Source of the DNA: Arcobacter sp.
GTDB taxonomy: Bacteria; Campylobacterota; Campylobacteria; Campylobacterales; Sulfurimonadaceae
Assembly (NCBI GenBank): GCA_024637195.1
Contig: JAGXFN010000003.1
Span: 62,001 to 126,000, forward strand
DNA length: 64,000 nucleotides
Reading direction: 5' to 3'
The translations under genes were made by a program, and so were the position numbers. This document shows, in pieces, positions 9,984 through 54,029 of this stretch. The notes beneath the pieces are model-generated. The model made no database searches. It worked only from the letters and a program-made list of their open reading frames with translations, and was not told the origin of the DNA. Numbering within the stretch: the stretch's first letter is position 1; the number at the start of each line of letters is the position of its first letter.

Positions 9984-11783
9984 TTAGCGGCTGAAACGCT
10001 TACGTTCAGCTTCTGTCAGTAGACGTTTACGAATACGTACACTGATCGGAGTGACTTCGAGAAGTTCATCGTCTTCGATCCACTCGAGTGCTTTTTCTAG
10101 GTTCATATCGCGTGGTGGAACCAGTTTGATCGCCTCATCCGCGCCTGAAGAACGGACGTTTGACTGTGCCTTGCCCTTGATCGGGTTGACGGCTAGGTCA
10201 TTTGAGCGAGAGTGCTCGCCGATGATCATTCCCTCATATACCTTGTCTTGAGGCTTGATGAAGATACCGCCGCGGTCTTGAAGGTTGAAGAGTGAATAGG
10301 CCAAGGCTGTTCCATTCTCCATAGAGATGAGTGCTCCATACTGGCGTGACTCAACCTTGCCGGAATATGGACGGAATTCCAAGAAAGAGTGGTTCATAAC
10401 ACCCTCGCCCTTAGTGTCTGTCAAGAACATACCGCGGAAACCGATAAGACCACGTGCCGGGATCTCAAATTCAATACGCTGGAAGCCCTGGCCCATTGGA
10501 ACCATAGACTTCATCTCAGCCTTACGCTTTCCAAGACGCTCGATAACCGTACCGCCTAAAGTTTCCGGAACATCGATAACAAGGTGCTCAAACGGCTCGC
10601 ATTTGACCCCTTCTACTTCTTTTACGATAACTTCCGGACGGCTTATGCCGAACTCGAAGCCTTCACGACGCATGTTTTCAGCCAAGACGGTGATCTGAAG
10701 TTCACCCCGTCCTGAAACTTTAAATTTGCCTTCGCCTACAGTTTCACATTTCATCGCAACATTCGTCTGCATCTCAGCGTCAAGACGTTCACGGATCTTG
10801 TTCGACGTAATGTGTTTTCCTTCCTGGCCAGCAAGAGGAGAGTCGTTTACCGAGAAGACAACAGTAAGGGTCGGCTCTTCAACGTGCATCGGGTCAAGTG
10901 CAACCGGCTTGATAGGGTCACAGACCGTGTCGCCAACGTTGACTGTCTCCATCCCTGCGATAGCAACGATATCGCCCGCTTCCGCCTCTGTGATCTCCAT
11001 ACGGTTAAGTCCGTGGAAACCGATCAGTTTGGTGATCTTTCCGTTGATCATCTCACCGTCAGCTTTGGCAAGTTTGACGTTGTCGCCTTTTTTGACACGG
11101 CCGTTAAAGATACGAGAGATACCGATCTTACCTACATAGTTGTCATAGTCAAGGGTGAAAACCTGGGCCTGAAGCGGGTTATCAGCAGAACCTTCCGGCT
11201 CAGGGATCATGTTGAGGATAGTTTCAAAGATACACTCAAATCCGCCGTCAGGATCGCTCATATCCATCTTTGCAATTCCGTCACGTGCTGCTGCATAGAT
11301 GATAGGGAAATCTAGCTGGTCATCTGTTGCGTCCATTGCAGCAAAAAGGTCAAACATCTCATCAACAACGCGCTCTGGATCAGCAGAAGGCTTGTCGATC
11401 TTGTTGATAACAACAATAGGCTTTTTGCCAAGTGCAAGCATCTTCTTAACAACAAACTTAGTTTGAGGCATAACGCCCTCATACGCATCCACAAGAACCA
11501 AAACGCCGTCTACCATTTTCAGTACACGTTCAACTTCTCCACCGAAGTCGGCGTGGCCCGGAGTATCGATGATATTGATCTTGTAGTCTTTGTAGCGGAC
11601 AGCCGTGTTCTTAGAAAGGATCGTGATACCACGTTCTTTCTCCAAAGCATTTGAATCCATTGCGCGTTCGTCATGTTGTTCATGAGATCCGTACGTTCCT
11701 GATTGCTCCAATAGACCATCTACGAGGGTTGTTTTACCGTGGTCAACGTGCGCGATAACGGCGATATTTCTGATTTTTTGCAT
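9984..11783 (-). CDS. typA: Ribosome-associated translational GTPase TypA/BipA
   Basis: The 599-residue protein begins with the G1 motif [20 protein letters not shown], has G2/G3 in [12 protein letters not shown] and [15 protein letters not shown], and G4 NKID. Translation-factor domain 2, EF-G-like domain III/V and the BipA-specific C-terminal domain follow, ending in [16 protein letters not shown]-like sequence. BipA binds the ribosome and aids 50S assembly and stress or cold adaptation. It is full length and monocistronic as far as can be seen. Confidence 0.97.
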
Positions 11784-45437: not shown

Positions 45438-45447
45438 GGACTTGGTG

Positions 45448-45996
45448 TTAGTTGAGCAGCTTTTCGATCTCCGGCTCCAGCATTTTTGGGGCGGTCGATG
45501 AGGCAAAGCGTTTTATAACATTTCCTTCCCGGTCAACCAAAAACTTCGTAAAATTCCACTTTATCGCCTCTGTGCCCAGTATCCACTTCTGCTCTTTTTT
45601 CAAAAAAACATAGAGCGCGGAGGCCTGCGCACCGTTGACATCAATCTTGGCAAACATAGGAAAACTCACCCCGTAGTTGAGCCGGCAAAAAGAAAGGATC
45701 TCTTCTTCGCTCCCGGGCTCCTGCGCGCCGAACTGGTTGCAGGGAAAGCCCAGTATCACCAGCCCTTTTTCTTTGTACTGTTGATAAAGGGTTTCAAGTC
45801 CTTCGTACTGAGAGGTGAAGCCGCATTTACTGGCGACATTGACGATGAGCATGACCTTGTTTTTGTAGGGCGCGAGGCTTGTTTTTGTTCCGTCTATTGT
45901 GATGACTTCGATCTCGTAGATGCTGGGCATCATTTTCTCCTTGGCATGGATTTGCAGGGAAAGCAGGAGTGCTATGGCAGCTATTCTTCTTATCAT
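45448..45996 (-). CDS. Exported glutathione-peroxidase-family protein
   Basis: The 182-residue protein has a Sec signal peptide ([20 protein letters not shown]) and the family motifs [12 protein letters not shown] (peroxidatic Cys), [19 protein letters not shown] (including the second Cys), and [14 protein letters not shown]. Its location in the periplasm suggests thioredoxin-like partners rather than glutathione. It overlaps the upstream SDR gene by 4 bases. Confidence 0.92.
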
Positions 45997-47465
45997 GCTT
46001 TTTCCTCTTTTGAGCCTTCTTCTATTTCCTTGGCGCGCGAAATCACCGAGCGTATCATATCGCGAAAGACAAGATAATGGACCGGGATCAACGCGTACCA
46101 GTAGAGGCGTCCGAGTATCCCCTTGGGAAGAAAATAGGCGCTTTGAACGAGTTTTCCCTCATGGATCTTGAACTCCAGCCACGCTTTGCCGGGAAGGTGC
46201 ATCTGCGCATAGAGCAGAAGCCGTTCATTCTCTTGGATGTCGACGACTTTCCAGAAGTCGAGGCTGTCGCCGATGCGAAGTTCGTTTTGAGAGCGTCGGC
46301 CGCGGTTAAGGCCTGCTCCCCCGGACATCTTGTCAATAAGTCCCCTCACTGTCCAGAGCCAGTCAAAACGGAACCAGCCGTTTTCTCCGCCGATAGAGAG
46401 ATAGCTTTGCTGAATTGATGCCGCACTTAGCGTGCCAAGCGGAAGCTCCTGTCTGTCGATGAAGAAGGCATTGGCGATGGAGTCCTTGTGGTCGGTTTCC
46501 CAGACATCGCCGCCGTGATCGCTCCAGCGGCTGACGACCTGATTTTCCTCCGCCTCCTGAAGTGCTTTTTGGACCGCTTCCTTGAAAGTGATCGGGCGGA
46601 TCTGTGCAAAGAGGGTGTGCGCCATGTCGTTTTGCACGACGACCTCGGAGCGCAGCCCTTTGATCAGCGAAAAGGCCACGTTGAAGGGGACAGGAGTGAA
46701 AAGGTTGAGCCAGTAAGAAGAGAGGCCGATGGAGAGAAAGGGGACAGGGATGATGAGACGCTTGAGCCCCATTACCTCTGCGCACTGGTGCATCATCGTT
46801 TGGTAGCAGAGTATCTCCGAGCCGATGTCCACCATGTGGCTCCCGCTGATACTCTCCTCTTTTGCCGCGTCAAGGTAGGAGATAACGTCGTCCACACCGA
46901 TGCTCTGAGCGCGGGTACGGACCCATTTTGGGGTGGTCATCACCGGGAGTTTCTGGATAAGGTTGCGGATGATCTCGAAACTCGCACTTCCCGAGCCGAT
47001 GATAACGCCGGCGCGAAACCAGATGACGTCGAGCTTGTCGGGACGCGCAGAGAGAATCTTCCCTGTTTCGATGCGGCTGAGCAGATGCTCGCTGGTATTC
47101 TCGTTGACGACGCCCAGTCCGCCCAGATAGATGATCTTTTTCACCCCTGCTGCTATAGCCGCCTCACGGAAGTTTTCGGCACTGGTCCTGTCGCGTTGGG
47201 CATAGTCATCCTGGCCTAGCGAATGGATGAGGTAGTAGGCTGTGTCCACACCTTCCATCGCCCGGGCCAGCACTTCGCTCTCGAAGCTGCTCCCCTCAAA
47301 AACGCTTGTCTTTTCTATGGCGGATGAGTGCAGGGCGCTGGCATGGCGCACCAGCAGATTCAGGCTCACGTTCTCATCTTGAAGGAGTTTTTGTTTCAGG
47401 CGGCGGCCGATGTAGCCGGTGGCGCCGGTGAGTAAGATCTTTTGTTTTGCAGAGGATGTTTTCAT
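45993..47465 (-). CDS. SDR oxidoreductase fused to DUF2867
   Basis: The 490-residue protein begins with a Rossmann domain ([20 protein letters not shown]) of the atypical NmrA/SDR type with [11 protein letters not shown]. Its C-terminal 150 residues match DUF2867, with [20 protein letters not shown] and [20 protein letters not shown]. The DUF2867 part resembles the SRPBCC-like polyketide-cyclase fold. Function is not known. It overlaps trpB by 4 bases. Confidence 0.87.
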
Positions 47466-48670
47466 AGTTTCAGTAGCTCCATTGCTTGTATCATATCTTT
47501 GTCGCCGCGCCCGGAGAGGCTGACGATGATCTTCTTACCCTTTATCATCTCCGGGGGCATCTTTTTGAGGTAGGCGATGGCATGTGCGCTCTCGAAAGCC
47601 GGGACTATTCCCTCCGCGCGGCTGAGCCAGACAAAGGCCTCGATCGCCTCCTCGTCGGTCACGCTGTCGTAGATGACCTTTCCCTCTTCCATCAGGTAGG
47701 AGTGCTCGGGGCCGATGCCCGGGTAGTCAAGTCCGGCGGAGATGGAGTGGGCTTCGCTGATCTGCCCCTCGTCATGCTGGAGAAGATAGCTGAGCTGTCC
47801 GTGCAGAATTCCCGGTTTTCCCAGCGCCAGACTCGCCCCGTGTTTTCCGCTCTCCAGCCCGTGTCCACCCGCCTCAATGCCGATGCACTGAACCGAACTC
47901 TCCTCTATGAAGTGCGCAAACATCCCCAAGGCGTTACTGCCGCCGCCGATGCAGGCGATGACATAGTCGGGGAGACTGTTCGTCTTTTCAAGAAGCTGCG
48001 CCTTCGCCTCGTAGCTGATGACACCCTGAAAGTCGCGCACCATCAGAGGATAGGGGTGTGGGCCCGCCGCGGTTCCGATGATGTAGAAGGTGTCGCGTGC
48101 GTGCGTCACCCAGTGGCGGATGGCGTCGTTCATCGCGTCTTTGAGCGTGCGGCTTCCCGAAGTGACGGCGTGAACCTTGGCACCGAGGAGCTTCATGCGA
48201 AAGACATTGAGCTCCTGACGCTGCACGTCCTTCTCGCCCATAAAGACCTCACACTCCAGCCCCATCAGTGCTGCTATAGTGGCCGTGGCAACACCGTGCT
48301 GGCCCGCGCCCGTTTCGGCGATGACCTTTGTCTTTCCCATCCGTTTGGCCAGAAGCCCTTGGACGATGGTGTTGTTGATCTTGTGCGCGCCGGTGTGGTT
48401 GAGGTCTTCGCGTTTGAGATAGACTTCAGCGCCGATCTCGTCGGAGATATGCTGGGCCTTGTACAGCGGCGAAGGGCGGCCGACGTACTCCTTGAAGTAG
48501 TAGTTCACCTCGGCCCAGAAGTCGGGATCGAAGCGCACGGAGGTGTAGTAGGCATCAAGTTCGATGAGTGCAGGCATCAGCGTCTCGGGGACAAAGCGCC
48601 CGCCGAATTTTCCAAAATGGCCCCGTGTATCAGGGTCGGAGGCAAAAGTCTGAGGGATATAATCATTCAT
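47462..48670 (-). CDS. trpB: Tryptophan synthase beta subunit
   Basis: From the ATG at 48670 (AAGGAG five bases upstream) the protein is 402 residues. It has [20 protein letters not shown], the PLP lysine in [13 protein letters not shown], and the phosphate loop [13 protein letters not shown]. It belongs to the TrpB1 group that pairs with TrpA. No trpA or other trp gene is adjacent. The neighbours are an SDR protein and an SRPBCC protein. A longer in-frame start at 48727 would overlap the neighbour more and lacks similarity. Confidence 0.96.
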
Positions 48671-49142
48671 GTGAACTCCTTTGCTCGGTCTCGAGCAGAA
48701 ATTTGGTACGTTCGTGGCGGTAGGCAAACATCTTGCGCATGTCGCGGTACAGCAGCGGAAGCAGCAGCAGGCTCAGCGGGTAAAAGGGGAGCGAAAACTC
48801 TACCCGGTCGCAGAGCAGGCTGCTCTTTTCATCCACAGCGCTGAAACGGTGCTCATGCACAAAATGCGAAAAGGGGCTCTGCAGGGCGCGGTCGCACAGA
48901 AGCGAGGGCGCCTCTAGCGCGGCCACCTCCATCTTCCAGCGGGTCGTGAAGCCCAGACGTTTGATGTCGAGTTCGATCACGCTTCCCGTTCGCAGCGGCA
49001 GGTCAATCGAAACGATGGAGGCCTGCGTTCCCGGCGGGGTGATGAGCGGAAGGTTTCGCGTGTCGAGGTGAAAGGCATAGAGACTCAGCACATTCGTCTG
49101 TACAACAGTGCAGAACTCAAGAACCCTTTTGGCTTCAAACAT
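48663..49142 (-). CDS. SRPBCC-family (START/Bet v1-like) protein
   Basis: The 159-residue protein starts [20 protein letters not shown] and has the SRPBCC pattern [20 protein letters not shown] and [20 protein letters not shown]. It ends with a Leu-rich stretch near the C-terminus. The family binds hydrophobic ligands. It lies between a lipocalin and trpB, overlapping trpB by 8 bases, and shares this fold with the DUF2867 protein two genes on. Confidence 0.8.
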
Positions 49143-49144
49143 CT

Positions 49145-49657
49145 TTACTCTCCCTGCTTCGTCCAGATCAGCGGCGCGGCCGTGTAACCCAGAGAAGGAA
49201 GCTTTTGCAGAATGCTCTGAACGATCGCCTCATCGAGCTGCGGCGTGCGTGAGAGGATCCAGAGGTACTCCCGCGAAGGATCGCCCACAAGGGCGTAGCG
49301 ATACTCCTCGTCGAGTATGAGTATCCAGTAGTCGCCGTAGAAGGGGCGGAAAAAACTCACCTTTAGGCGGCTGTTGCTCTCATCCACGGCGTAGGCGATG
49401 CCCTTTGCCTCTTTGCGTTTGCCCTCTTCGTCGGTGCAGCGGTTGATGACCTCGACCTTTCCCTCGTCGGTGAGGGTGTAGGTCGCACTGACATCACTGC
49501 ACCCTTTTTCAAAAGAGTGCTCATAACGCGCGATCTCGTACCAGGTCCCCGCATAACGTTGCAGATCGACCTTCTCCACTGTCGCCAGCGGAGCATACTG
49601 CGGAGCGCATCCGGTCAAAACCAGAAGTGTAAAGAGAAGAAGAGAGTAGTTTTTCAT
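49145..49657 (-). CDS. blc: Bacterial lipocalin lipoprotein (Blc-like)
   Basis: The 170-residue protein has a lipobox signal peptide (LLVLTGCAPQ, lipidated Cys at about residue 17) and lipocalin motifs: RYAGTWYEIARYEHSFEKGC, and YWILILDEEYRYALVGDPSR. Blc proteins sit in the outer membrane and bind lysophospholipids or fatty acids. It is the first gene of the blc-SRPBCC-trpB-SDR-gpx run. Confidence 0.92.
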   Translation of the reverse strand: MKNYSLLLFTLLVLTGCAPQYAPLATVEKVDLQRYAGTWYEIARYEHSFEKGCSDVSATYTLTDEGKVEVINRCTDEEGKRKEAKGIAYAVDESNSRLKVSFFRPFYGDYWILILDEEYRYALVGDPSREYLWILSRTPQLDEAIVQSILQKLPSLGYTAAPLIWTKQGE

Positions 49658-49770
49658 GTCGTTGTCCTGAGTGTTTAGGATAAGTGAGCTCTACTATTCT
49701 AGCGTGTTAATGGGGAGATTGGTGTCCTAATTTTGTCGGTTTAAAAGAGGGGCTTTGCTTGTCCCTGTCT

Positions 49771-49949
49771 CTACTCAAACCCTTTTTCTGTCATTTTTTT
49801 ATACTCTAGAAGTCTTGATTTCAGTTTGACAAATGCCGGCTGCGGCAGGTATTGCAGAAGATTGACGATCTCTCGCATCTCTTTGGAGTAGAGCGGATGT
49901 TGTTTTCGCTGGTGTGCTCTATGTGCGCGCTGAACACCCCTGTGAATGA
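49771..49949 (-). pseudogene. Truncated 3' end of a small gene beside the insertion
   Basis: A reverse frame ending at a TAG (49771-49773) encodes KEMREIVNLLQYLPQPAFVK and LKSRLLEYKKMTEKGFE, preceded by a basic His-rich stretch. It looks coding (amphipathic helix, normal codon use) but has no credible start codon with a ribosome site. Its upstream part runs directly into the left 15-bp repeat of the insertion. I infer a gene whose 5' end was lost or separated by the insertion. A genuine 35-residue gene starting at 49878 is possible. Confidence 0.35.
49935..49949. repeat. Left copy of the 15-bp direct repeat flanking the FISUMP gene
   Basis: CACCCCTGTGAATGA is repeated exactly at 51473-51487 in the same orientation, 1538 bases away. 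The two copies enclose one AT-rich gene. Confidence 0.75.
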
Positions 49950-49979
49950 TTAAGCTACTGTTTCCAAGATTCCGCGCGA

Positions 49980-49999
49980 TTCCATGCTAAAGCATGGAA
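49980..49999. repeat. Inverted repeat 13 bases after the FISUMP gene stop
   Basis: TTCCATGCT and AGCATGGAA are exact complements with two bases between them. Inverted repeats that extrude as hairpins right after the variable region are a required element of DGR targets. It could instead be the transcription terminator. Confidence 0.55.
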
Positions 50000-50012
50000 A
50001 AGGTATTAAGTT

Positions 50013-50204
50013 TTAATCCTTGAGACAGCGAACACTAAACCCGTAAGCACGAGTGCCTAAGTCGAACTTGTTAGCAGCAGAGTTGGTGAAGAACAAGTAG
50101 CCCGAGGAACCGCCCGAGACACTGCTAGACCACACCTTGCCTTCGGTGCCAGAAACATTATTCCAAGAACCATCGCCGCCGTTGCGGTTACCAGCGGAGG
50201 GCAA
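50013..50204 (-). other. Candidate DGR variable region
   Basis: These 192 bases encode residues 383-445 plus the stop. Many codons end in C or T (GGC, TCC, TAC, TTC, GCT, AAC), as expected when AAC/AAT codons in a template are mutated at adenines. The conserved frame GFSVRC at the end fits the fixed 3' anchor of such regions. Confidence 0.45.
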
Positions 50205-51350
50205 TTTTAGGAAGCTATTAAAGGCGTCTGTGTTGTTAGCAACCGGTGTGCTTGCTGATGTTGTTTCAAGTGTTAGTTCTGTTATTGTCGGTACGCGGTA
50301 ACCTACCGGACAAACGGATGAGCCGTCTGTTTTAGACCAGTTAGTGTTTCTTAGAGATCCATTTGAATCTGCTGTTGTCCAGTCAAGTGGCGATACTGTA
50401 GAATTAGTTATAAAATTACTATTAGCTGCTGTAATAGTTGTTGCTAATGTAGCTGTTGGTGTACTTGTTGTTTTCTCATGTCCATCAGTAGCTCTACCCC
50501 ATTGGTAGTAGTCTCCATAACAAGCGGTGTCATTTAGAACCGTACACACTTGAGAAGCACCTAGATTTCTGTCTAGCCATATTTTGCCCGTGTATGGTGA
50601 AATTACTGAGGCATATGTTGTTCCATTGTGAGTTGGAGTGAAATCAAAGTTTAAATCAGTTTTAGTGATATTTAGAGTTGTCTCATATGCAGAAACACTT
50701 CCGTTTATAGCTTTAACTGCAGTTAAAAATGCTCTGTATGTAATTCCTTGTATTCCCATAGTCGCATTTACATCTGCCTCTGCCAGAGTAAATATATCAT
50801 TTAAACTAGCAGGATTAGCACCAGCTACTCTTAGCTTAAATGCATTTTTAAGAGTGGCATTTGTTTCTACCATATAAAGCAGTTGAGAGAGTTTTGCTAA
50901 GTCTGTGTTGTTTGTGTCTACATAATCAACCGCAAATGAATCTATGCTATCAGAAACAGAAAGTGCGATTGCAAGCTTAGTCTGCAAAGAAGCATTGTTT
51001 TCTAAGAATGTTGTTATAGGAGAGATGACAAGTCCGCTTTGAGCCGTCATGTTTATGTCAAATGAAGCATTTGTGTCTTCTAATGCACCACCAGTAAGAG
51101 TAAGCGGGTAAGCGACACTGCCTGAAAATGTATACTGACCATTTGAAGTGTAAGTTCCAACCTTGCCTCCATTATCTGTAAGAGTGGCATTTTTAACATA
51201 GCCATCTACAGCTGTTACAGTTGTTGTACCAACAGCAGGAGTACTGCTATCATCTCCACACCCAATCATTACAAACGGCACAATTATAAAAAGTAGTGCC
51301 TTAGCTAATAACTCTTTCTCTACAAAGAGCTTTTTTATAACAGTTTTCAT
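50013..51350 (-). CDS. Lipoprotein with C-terminal FISUMP (C-type-lectin-like) domain; candidate DGR variable protein
   Basis: The 445-residue protein has a lipobox signal peptide (FVMIGCGDD, lipidated Cys at about 31), a Thr/Asn-rich middle, and a C-terminal FISUMP domain (about residues 235-445) with GKIWLDRNLGASQVC, GDYYQWGRATDGHE and VCPVGYRVPTITEL. Its last 63 residues (383-445, LPSAGNRNGGDGSW to GFSVRCLKD) are encoded by DNA with only 34 adenines in 192 bases and 53% G+C. An upstream 60-base stretch coding for residues near 296-315 has 42% adenine. Such adenine depletion at a CLec-fold C-terminus is what DGR mutagenesis produces. No TR or RT is in the window, so this is inference. Confidence 0.85.
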   Translation of the reverse strand: MKTVIKKLFVEKELLAKALLFIIVPFVMIGCGDDSSTPAVGTTTVTAVDGYVKNATLTDNGGKVGTYTSNGQYTFSGSVAYPLTLTGGALEDTNASFDINMTAQSGLVISPITTFLENNASLQTKLAIALSVSDSIDSFAVDYVDTNNTDLAKLSQLLYMVETNATLKNAFKLRVAGANPASLNDIFTLAEADVNATMGIQGITYRAFLTAVKAINGSVSAYETTLNITKTDLNFDFTPTHNGTTYASVISPYTGKIWLDRNLGASQVCTVLNDTACYGDYYQWGRATDGHEKTTSTPTATLATTITAANSNFITNSTVSPLDWTTADSNGSLRNTNWSKTDGSSVCPVGYRVPTITELTLETTSASTPVANNTDAFNSFLKLPSAGNRNGGDGSWNNVSGTEGKVWSSSVSGGSSGYLFFTNSAANKFDLGTRAYGFSVRCLKD

Positions 51351-51472
51351 TAAAAGCCTTTTTTTGTTAAATTTTGTAACATTTTAACGAATAATTGTAG
51401 TATAAAAAGTTATAAATACTATGAGTTTATTGTAAATCGTTTTTTTTGTTACAAAATTACATACTGCAAAAG

Positions 51473-51487
51473 CACCCCTGTGAATGA
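51473..51487. repeat. Right copy of the 15-bp direct repeat
   Basis: CACCCCTGTGAATGA matches 49935-49949 exactly. It lies 36 bases downstream of the phrB stop codon. Confidence 0.75.
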
Positions 51488-51522
51488 ATCTCCACTTTTC
51501 ATCTTTTTAGACTAGAGTTACT

Positions 51523-52884
51523 CTAAACTACCTGCCTTTTAAAATAGGCCAAAGCGGCTGCGGCAGCCTCTTTATGGCGGAGGATGGGTTTGGGATAGTC
51601 TGCTATAGCGTGGCTGAGAAGATACTCCTCGTTGTGGAGTTCTTTGGGGGAAATCTCTTTGAGTGCGGGGCAGAAAGTTTTGATATAGAGCGCTTCTTTG
51701 TCAAACTTCTTTGCCTGAAGGTAGGGGTTGAAGATGCGGAAGTAGGGCTGGGGGTCGATGCCCGTACCCGCGCTCCATTGCCAGGAGAGGATATTTGAGG
51801 CCGCGTCGTAGTCGAGAAGATGCTCTGCAAAAAAAGCCTCGCCCCACTGCCAGGGCAGCAAAAGGTCCTTGGTGAAAAAGGAGGCGCAGACCATGCGTAC
51901 GCGGTTGTGCATCGTGCCCCTTTGCAAAAGCTCTTTGACGCCGGCATCGATGAGGGGTACGCCCGTCTCGCCTTTGCAGAACGCCTCATACTTTTCGGGG
52001 TCTTGCACGCCTTTGAAACGGTATTTGTAGTTCTCTTTTTCTATGCGGGGGAAGTGATAAAGGAGGTAGGCATAGAAGTCGCGGAAGAGCAGCTGCCTGA
52101 AAAATGCCTCCGTCTGCAGACCTGCTTTTTCCTGTGTACTTAAAAAGCGCAGGACTTCGCGCACGCTGATCGTGCCGAAACGCAGGTCGATGCTCAGCCC
52201 GGAGCTGCCTTGAAGCGAGGGAAAATTCCGGTGTGTTTCATAGCTGTCGAGTCTTTGCTTCAGCCGCTGCAGTTTTGTCTCGGGTGCCTCGTACAAAAAC
52301 GTCTGCTGCGTAAAGCCTATGGAGGTGATTTGGAAGGCAAGAAGCTTCTCTTTGCCCTGCGATATCTGTGTTATCCCTTCGTAGTCTTGGGGAAAAAGCT
52401 GCTGCCGGGCAAAAGAGCAGGCCTTCATGTGTTCAGCCGAAAACAGGGTCCTGGCCCTGTTGTAGAAAGGGGTGAAGAGAAGGTAAGGCGTCTTGTCGGC
52501 CTTGAGCACCTCATCAAAAGAAAAAACATAGGTGTCATTAAGGCAGCGAAAATGCAGCAGGCGCGAGACTTCGAGGTCTCTTTGTCGGGCATAAGCGTCA
52601 TAATCGCCGCTGGCAGCCACCTCATCAAAACCCAGCGGAGCAAGCGCGGCAAAGACCTCTATCGGGGAGCCGAAAAAGAGTTTGAGATCAAGGCCTTTTG
52701 CCTGCAGATCCTGTTTCAGCTTCAGCACACGCGAAAAGATAAAAGAGACGCGCCGGTCATCTTCGCGCAGCGATTTGAGGATATTGGTATCAAAGATGAA
52801 GATGGGCAGGACCTCGCCGCCGAGGCTGAGCAGAGGGTTGTCCTCTACTCTAAGGTCGCGGCGAAACCAGAGGATGCGTCTCAT
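51523..52884 (-). CDS. phrB: Deoxyribodipyrimidine photolyase
   Basis: The 453-residue protein starts MRRILWFRRDLRVEDNPLLS, the antenna-binding N-terminal domain. The FAD domain contains GTMHNRVRMVCASFFTKDLL, then WQWGEAFF, DYDAASNILSWQWSAGTGID and PYFRIFNPYLQAKKFD, which include the electron-transfer Trp residues. It repairs UV-induced pyrimidine dimers using light. It overlaps the ybgA-like gene by 4 bases, as in the E. coli ybgA-phr pair. Confidence 0.96.
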   Translation of the reverse strand: MRRILWFRRDLRVEDNPLLSLGGEVLPIFIFDTNILKSLREDDRRVSFIFSRVLKLKQDLQAKGLDLKLFFGSPIEVFAALAPLGFDEVAASGDYDAYARQRDLEVSRLLHFRCLNDTYVFSFDEVLKADKTPYLLFTPFYNRARTLFSAEHMKACSFARQQLFPQDYEGITQISQGKEKLLAFQITSIGFTQQTFLYEAPETKLQRLKQRLDSYETHRNFPSLQGSSGLSIDLRFGTISVREVLRFLSTQEKAGLQTEAFFRQLLFRDFYAYLLYHFPRIEKENYKYRFKGVQDPEKYEAFCKGETGVPLIDAGVKELLQRGTMHNRVRMVCASFFTKDLLLPWQWGEAFFAEHLLDYDAASNILSWQWSAGTGIDPQPYFRIFNPYLQAKKFDKEALYIKTFCPALKEISPKELHNEEYLLSHAIADYPKPILRHKEAAAAALAYFKRQVV

Positions 52885-53828
52885 TTGCCGCTTTTGATGT
52901 CGGAGCGCAGTGCCAGCACTTTTGGATAGGGATGGAGGAACTTCTGTTGCAGCAGATAGGTGGCCTCATACTTCTGCGCAAACATATGCAGGGTGCTCAG
53001 CGGAGTGATCAGCGGGATTATCTTATGGGCGAAGTCGCTGATCTGCTCATGGAACATTGACTTTTCTACCGGGGTGAGTTCATTTTTTAAAAATCCTGCC
53101 ATATGCTCAAGCACATTGCGCGTCTTGGAAATGCTGCTCTTGCGCGCTATAGCACTTTTGAAGATCAGCTCGTAGCGCGAAAGTGTCTCGGCACTGCTCA
53201 GTCCTTCGTGGTTGCCGACGATGTTGCCGAGCAGACGGTAGGCCTTTTCATCTTTGGACTGGAGCATAAACTTATACTGCTGGTGGAAGCTTACAAGCGA
53301 TTTCATCTGCGGCGCGGAGGCCTTGAACTCTTCGAAGTCCTCGTAGGCAAAGAGCTGCATCACGAAGTTCTCTCTCAGCCAAGGATCGTTCAGCCGTCCC
53401 TCCTCCTCCATCGGAAGAAGAGGAAAGTGCTGCTGACAGAGCTCGGCAAAAAGACCGTTGCTCTTTCCCTCGGCAAAGCCGTTTTCTCGGTAGGACTTCG
53501 CGCTTCCCAGGGCGCAGCTTGGGGATTTTGATTTGAAGATGATGCCGCTGAGACGGTGTTCTTTTAGCGTGCGGAGTTCTTTTTCAGAGGCTTCAAGAAG
53601 GCTTAGGGTGAGATCTTCACCGGTTTTGTTCGACTGGATGATGCTCACATCGTCACCCTGTACAATACGAAGCGAAGGACGGGGTGTGCCAAAAGCGAGG
53701 TGCTCGGGGCAAAAGGGAATGAGCTGGGCAAACTCGCCCAGCTCGTCAGTGATAAAGTGGTCATGTTTGTGCCCGGCATCAAAACGGACTTTTGCGCCCA
53801 GAAGACAAGAAGAGACGGCTATTTTCAT
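52881..53828 (-). CDS. ybgA: DUF523-DUF1722 protein (YbgA-like)
   Basis: From the ATG at 53828 (315 residues) the protein starts MKIAVSSCLLGAKVRFDAGH, the DUF523 domain with conserved Cys residues (SSCLLG, IPFCPEHLAFGTPRP, SPSCALG) that could bind a metal or cluster. The C-terminal DUF1722 domain includes LVSFHQQYKFMLQSKDEKAY. It is coupled to phrB and thus may act in UV damage repair. A longer start 24 codons upstream lacks support. Confidence 0.9.
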   Translation of the reverse strand: MKIAVSSCLLGAKVRFDAGHKHDHFITDELGEFAQLIPFCPEHLAFGTPRPSLRIVQGDDVSIIQSNKTGEDLTLSLLEASEKELRTLKEHRLSGIIFKSKSPSCALGSAKSYRENGFAEGKSNGLFAELCQQHFPLLPMEEEGRLNDPWLRENFVMQLFAYEDFEEFKASAPQMKSLVSFHQQYKFMLQSKDEKAYRLLGNIVGNHEGLSSAETLSRYELIFKSAIARKSSISKTRNVLEHMAGFLKNELTPVEKSMFHEQISDFAHKIIPLITPLSTLHMFAQKYEATYLLQQKFLHPYPKVLALRSDIKSGK

Positions 53829-54029
53829 CAGATGCTCCCTATGGTAACCCTGCAACGGCGGATGCGCCAGCAGACTTTTTAGATACAAATAGTAGCACAT
53901 AAGCAGTGAAAAAAGTCCATGCGGCGGACAGGTGGTTTTAAAGGTGTCAGTATGATAAAATAGTGTGATTTAAAGTGTCTGGATATTAAACCGACAACAG
54001 CACTTGAGATAAAATCATCAGGACAGACC

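Follow-up and report, generated by a model that had tools for sequence, protein, structure and literature searches.

An apparently solitary FISUMP lipoprotein gene of a Campylobacterota genome very probably carries a variable repeat of the diversity-generating retroelement type

Introduction

The diversity-generating retroelement (DGR) of Bordetella phage BPP-1 is a complete, phage-borne system whose target is Mtd, and only a few bases separate its variable repeat (VR) from a downstream hairpin with a 4-nt loop. Published DGR targets also include FISUMP domains on lipoproteins, described for the human microbiome (PMC4159848). Target genes can occur without a reverse transcriptase (RT) or template repeat (TR), as relics of lost DGRs or as genes acquired alone. 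Such cases have been published for Treponema denticola isolates (PMC4891356), for the partial DGRs of the nanoarchaeal DUSEL4 (PMC4372165), and for degenerate loci of Thiohalocapsa PB-PSB1 (PMC10907252).

Here, we analyze a FISUMP lipoprotein gene located in the window, that is, the whole stretch of DNA studied (64,000 nucleotides). As in the BPP-1 DGR, a hairpin with a 4-nt loop lies shortly after the VR, but the loop sequence (TTTA) differs and the system is not complete. Like the FISUMP-targeting DGRs (PMC4159848 and the Sulfurovum locus L051), the gene has a C-terminal FISUMP domain on a lipoprotein and a VR that ends at the stop codon; with L051 it further shares the 5′ border of the VR and a similar spacer and hairpin. 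Unlike in these DGRs, RT, Avd, and TR neither adjoin the gene nor occur in its assembly. The RT-less targets (PMC4891356, PMC4372165, PMC10907252) resemble it in consisting of a VR and cis elements only and in that fossil and remote target are not told apart, but the present gene differs by lying on a self-contained insert between 15-nt direct repeats and by having no strain with a known cognate TR. Both FISUMP targets of DGRs and variable genes that lack an RT have been published before, and this gene adds one more such case.

Results

The encoded protein is a lipoprotein that ends in a FISUMP domain

The features of the locus are collected in Table 1. The gene lies in the middle of its contig (C6:112016–113350 of the assembly). 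Its G+C content is low and its codon use unusual compared with the neighboring genes. In profile searches, the protein matched TIGR02145 (E 1.8e-6, residues 257–445) and Fib_succ_major (E 7.9e-5), both short of their curated cut-offs. The FISUMP domain aligns with 48 homologous domains at 33–62% identity and was modeled by AlphaFold with a pLDDT of 93.9. A Foldseek search of this model against the PDB gave no match at E ≤ 0.001, and some of the short, weak alignments were with C-type lectins; the top match in the viral library was a Fib_succ_major domain (E 0.028, probability 0.96). Judging by the literature on FISUMP/DUF1566, a lectin fold is plausible for this domain.

Table 1. Coordinates of the features at the locus, as positions in the window
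Feature	Position	Strand	Basis
FISUMP lipoprotein gene, 445 aa	50013–51350	−	ORF; lipobox ...VMIGC; profile matches; domain model
DGR-type variable repeat (VR), codons 383–445 plus stop	50013–50204	−	Changepoint; border alignment with the VRs of L051 and L057
Post-stop spacer AACTTAATACC, common to DGR-type relatives	50002–50012	−	Match to CTTARTACT
Hairpin TTCCATGC-TTTA-GCATGGAA, at the position of DGR target hairpins	49980–49999	−	Fold, shuffles, homologues
Insert of FISUMP gene, spacer, and hairpin only, about 1.55 kb, absent from G034	49935–51506		Comparison with G034
Direct repeat copy 1, CACCCCTGTGAATGA	49935–49949	+	Homology with same-genus G034 stops at 49934
Direct repeat copy 2, CACCCCTGTGAATGA	51473–51487	+	Exact recurrence
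Truncated remnant of a small regulator-like gene, fuller form in G034	49725–49934	−	Comparison with G034

The 3′ end of the gene is depleted in adenine

A sequence-only reading had proposed the 3′ end of the gene as a DGR variable region. The composition on which it relied was confirmed: the final 192 coding bases contain 34 adenines and are 53% G+C. It had also reported an upstream 60-base stretch with 42% adenine, which falls within the 40–47% that we obtained, the peak being 47% in a 60-base window at gene bases 871–930 with 40% in the adjoining windows. A-ending codons drop from 37% to 3% at a single sharp changepoint, codon 383 (window position 50204, at LPSAG), with a log-likelihood ratio of 18.8 compared to a maximum of 9.9 in 2000 permutations. 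The changepoint was again at codon 383 when codons with any A were scored, while A/T-ending codons placed the border 11 codons earlier. At residues for which an A-ending codon is an option, such a codon is used in 2/45 cases in the 3′ region versus 140/286 upstream (p = 9e-10). In the other genes of the window this use is mostly 0.18–0.36, the lowest value being 0.12, and the region is therefore depleted relative to the host and to its own gene alike. The depletion is due to more than amino-acid choice.

Related loci have template and variable repeats with the same borders

Homologous loci were collected by protein similarity, and 12 A-depleted homologues (the window gene included) were compared with 40 that are not depleted; the depletion is thus common to 11 other homologues. 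At two loci on Sulfurovum MAG contigs, L051 and L057, a second, noncoding copy of the C-terminal stretch lies downstream of the FISUMP gene. In L051 the TR/VR pair spans 188 bases and all of its 20 mismatches are at template adenines (20/20); in L057 it spans 186 bases, with 21/23 mismatches at template adenines. Both VRs start in alignment with codon 383 of the window gene and end at the stop. L051 is a complete DGR, in which an RT with GLPIGNLTSQ and YVDD motifs and a bAvd above the Pfam cut-off stand beside the TR/VR pair. As regards an IMH/IMH* pair, the 3′ end of the window VR, GTTCGCTGTCTCAAGGATTAA, is the counterpart of the 3′ end that TR and VR of L051 have in common. At the 14 AAC/AAT codons of the L051 template, the window gene has NNY in 12 (the exceptions are AAG and TTA). 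Residue identity between the two is 3/14 at these AAY codons versus 31/48 elsewhere, although another 17 positions, not in AAY codons, are different as well in this interspecies comparison at moderate identity. The comparison would be compatible with past mutagenesis of the window copy or with inheritance of a repeat that was already written.

These data bear on the possibility that the FISUMP domain is an ordinary one whose 3′ composition comes from recombination with host-like sequence or from selection on a Gly/Ser/Trp-rich protein. FISUMP homologues without DGR features are indeed common, some of them in complete, RT-less genomes, and the gene outside its 3′ region has a lower G+C content than the host genome, as such an origin would suggest. 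Nevertheless, the use of A-ending codons falls below that of most host genes as well as of the upstream part, the border falls where L051 and L057 have their TR/VR border, and the homologues without DGR features show no A depletion. We consider this explanation improbable; by its resemblance to the Sulfurovum repeats, the 3′ region appears very probably to be DGR-written.

DGRs are numerous across the family of the window genome, several having two VRs around one TR. Adenine-specific TR/VR pairs were seen at L105, L106, L119, L121–L127, L129–L137, L147–L150, L152, and L153. Within the genus, G034 has a phage-like locus (L178, 5868–10466) with a long tail-fiber-like target, an RT with GIPIGNLLSQ, and a TR/VR pair in which 11/11 mismatches fall on adenines. 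The L057 locus (10796–11436) keeps VR, TR, and Avd, but its RT is reduced to the last codons beside Avd, and a short inverted repeat occupies the place expected for the RT. The same genome has two tandem FISUMP genes (L072, 10001–11533) with 3′ ends that are 93% identical; the locus has a template for neither of them. A candidate TR/VR pair at L023 (3440–3648) was rejected; it is a tandem array with a 9-base unit, which mimics matches in the adenine-bias scan, and not a DGR. Our literature search found no paper on DGRs in Sulfurovum.

A conserved spacer and a hairpin follow the stop codon

The protein end GFSVRCLKD right at the stop codon, the border at that codon, and the inverted repeat with 9-bp arms 13 nt past it are all as the sequence-only reading had described them. 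The hairpin can be drawn with an 8-bp stem and a 4-nt loop or with the 9-bp arms and a 2-nt loop. A hairpin of at least 8 bp at that position occurred in 0.14% of shuffles, and the DNA fold has a z of −2.76. The spacer before it also recurs: CTTARTACT was found within 2 mismatches after the stop in 9/12 A-depleted homologues (window included) versus 4/40 of the others. In L045, L050, L051, and L057, an ACTTARTACTT-like spacer leads to a 6-bp stem with a TTCA loop 12 nt past the stop, and these stems show paired changes between GAGAGC/GCTCTC and GCAAGC/GCTTGC. We rejected the hairpin as independent proof of a DGR: hairpins also follow 8/40 non-depleted homologues, some of them terminator-like, and the association of hairpin with depletion, taken alone, lacks significance (p = 0.15).

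RT, Avd, and TR are not found in the assembly

The assembly comprises 2,175,166 bases in 15 contigs and is 89.4% complete, with a contamination estimate of 0.22%. As claimed from the sequence, the window has no RT: no RVT_1 match was found in it or in the rest of the assembly, and the L051 RT used as query gave no match there either. Avd of L051 matched nothing in the assembly at E ≤ 10, in a search run without a positive control. A BLAST search of the assembly with the VR returned the gene itself and chance matches of 14–29 bases, none of which included the VR 3′ end. The check that the sequence-only reading had named as its own refutation, for a DGR-type RT and a template repeat in the full genome, therefore had a negative outcome at about 89% completeness. 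With roughly a tenth of the genome not assembled, absence from the assembly is no proof of absence from the organism. VR DNA gave only short matches in 151 family genomes (in G084 and G145), its 3′ end used as a pattern was not found in IMG/VR, and a protein search of IMG/VR, phage, and plasmid records gave no match. A small downstream ORF was rejected as an accessory gene; it has no convincing Pfam/NCBIfam match and corresponds to the truncated remnant of a G034 gene (Table 1).

Similar solitary repeats occur elsewhere. The A-depleted FISUMP C-termini of L045 and L047 (both in G154) have no cognate TR in their own genome and match only each other, and the genome of L011 (G145, 99% complete), which also has an A-depleted FISUMP C-terminus, contains no RVT_1. 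This wider pattern leans towards solitary genes.

The incompleteness of the assembly leaves room for a DGR with all its parts, RT, Avd, and TR, that lies in the unassembled tenth or so and rewrites the VR in trans. The VR is still sharply unlike the rest of the gene, its spacer and hairpin are intact, trans-acting DGRs are on record (PMC10907252, PMC4891356), and DGRs are frequent in the family, with one in the same genus. Yet this requires RT, Avd, and TR alike to lie in the missing part, the VR itself was assembled well inside a contig, and an RT or a TR is also lacking from further genomes whose VRs are similar, including one that is 99% complete. We hold a complete DGR in the gap to be rather unlikely. 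The initial proposal, in which a DGR located elsewhere in the genome acts on this gene as a remote target, may hold, but an orphan is no less probable.

The gene lies on a short insert between direct repeats

Compared to the window, G034 (L177) is 90% identical over 45445–49934 and 81% identical over 51507–53921; in place of the intervening segment it has an unrelated segment of about 4.2 kb. On the left, the insert begins at the first base of CACCCCTGTGAATGA (15 nt; chance expectation of 0.06 matches in the window), and the junction cuts the small regulator-like gene. Such flanking direct repeats suggest recombination or a target-site duplication.

The flanks also bear on an assembly or binning artefact that would have placed a gene of another organism here. 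Compared with its neighbors, the gene is low in G+C and odd in codon use, which would fit such an error, but it is mid-contig between flanks that align with a genome of the same genus, and the estimated contamination is very low. An artefact is thus very improbable.

CACCCCTGTGAATGA is part of a longer, dispersed motif, TACACCCCTGTGAATGAATCTCCACTTTT (about 28 bp), present in 85/228 family genomes and in almost none for a reversed control. At L054 this motif flanks a FISUMP gene as well. It is possibly a transposon or MITE end; as the end of a transposase-coding element it was rejected because it is inconsistent between loci. It also occurs at G000:C2:16007, C15:22128, and C6:140765, and it is sometimes clustered or arranged as inverted pairs.

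Discussion

Our results partly uphold the initial proposal of a DGR variable region: homology, borders, A depletion, spacer, and hairpin are shared with the Sulfurovum VRs, but neither RT nor template was found in the assembly. The explanation that we favor, and hold to be likely, is a solitary DGR-type target, horizontally acquired and with a VR written in the past, that stands without the rest of a DGR, whether orphan or served in trans. We classify the gene as a DGR target and not as a DGR, because the three defining parts (RT, TR, and Avd) were sought and not found in the assembly; it functions, or once functioned, as DGR targets do. It is somewhat the likelier case that the gene is an orphan, frozen since its transfer or since the loss of its DGR, and quite possible that a DGR in the missing tenth of the genome continues to diversify it in trans.

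According to this model, the last 63 codons of a surface-lipoprotein target would have been written in the past by adenine-mutagenic retrohoming. RT and Avd would copy a template RNA, placing random bases opposite A, and the cDNA would replace the VR between two landmarks, the conserved LPSAG at the start and VRCLKD at the 3′ end, beside the spacer and hairpin. The outcome would be changed exposed residues in a ligand-binding FISUMP domain. The gene would have arrived on the chromosome as the single-gene insert, with the other DGR parts not included. We infer the past mutagenesis of the window copy, the surface exposure, the ligand binding, and the mode of transfer.

With this gene, the range of known DGR targets extends to FISUMP lipoproteins of Campylobacterota. 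It indicates that codon composition can by itself reveal A-depleted variable repeats where RT and template are missing. Solitary targets of this kind are overlooked when a survey takes the RT as its starting point, and one such survey itself makes this remark for remote targets (PMC8144416). A more speculative idea, which we regard as doubtful, is that DGR targets travel as single-gene inserts (gene, VR, and hairpin) bounded by a dispersed short repeat. If true, hypervariable receptors would spread without their mutator, to remain as a frozen repertoire or to be re-activated on meeting a matching DGR.
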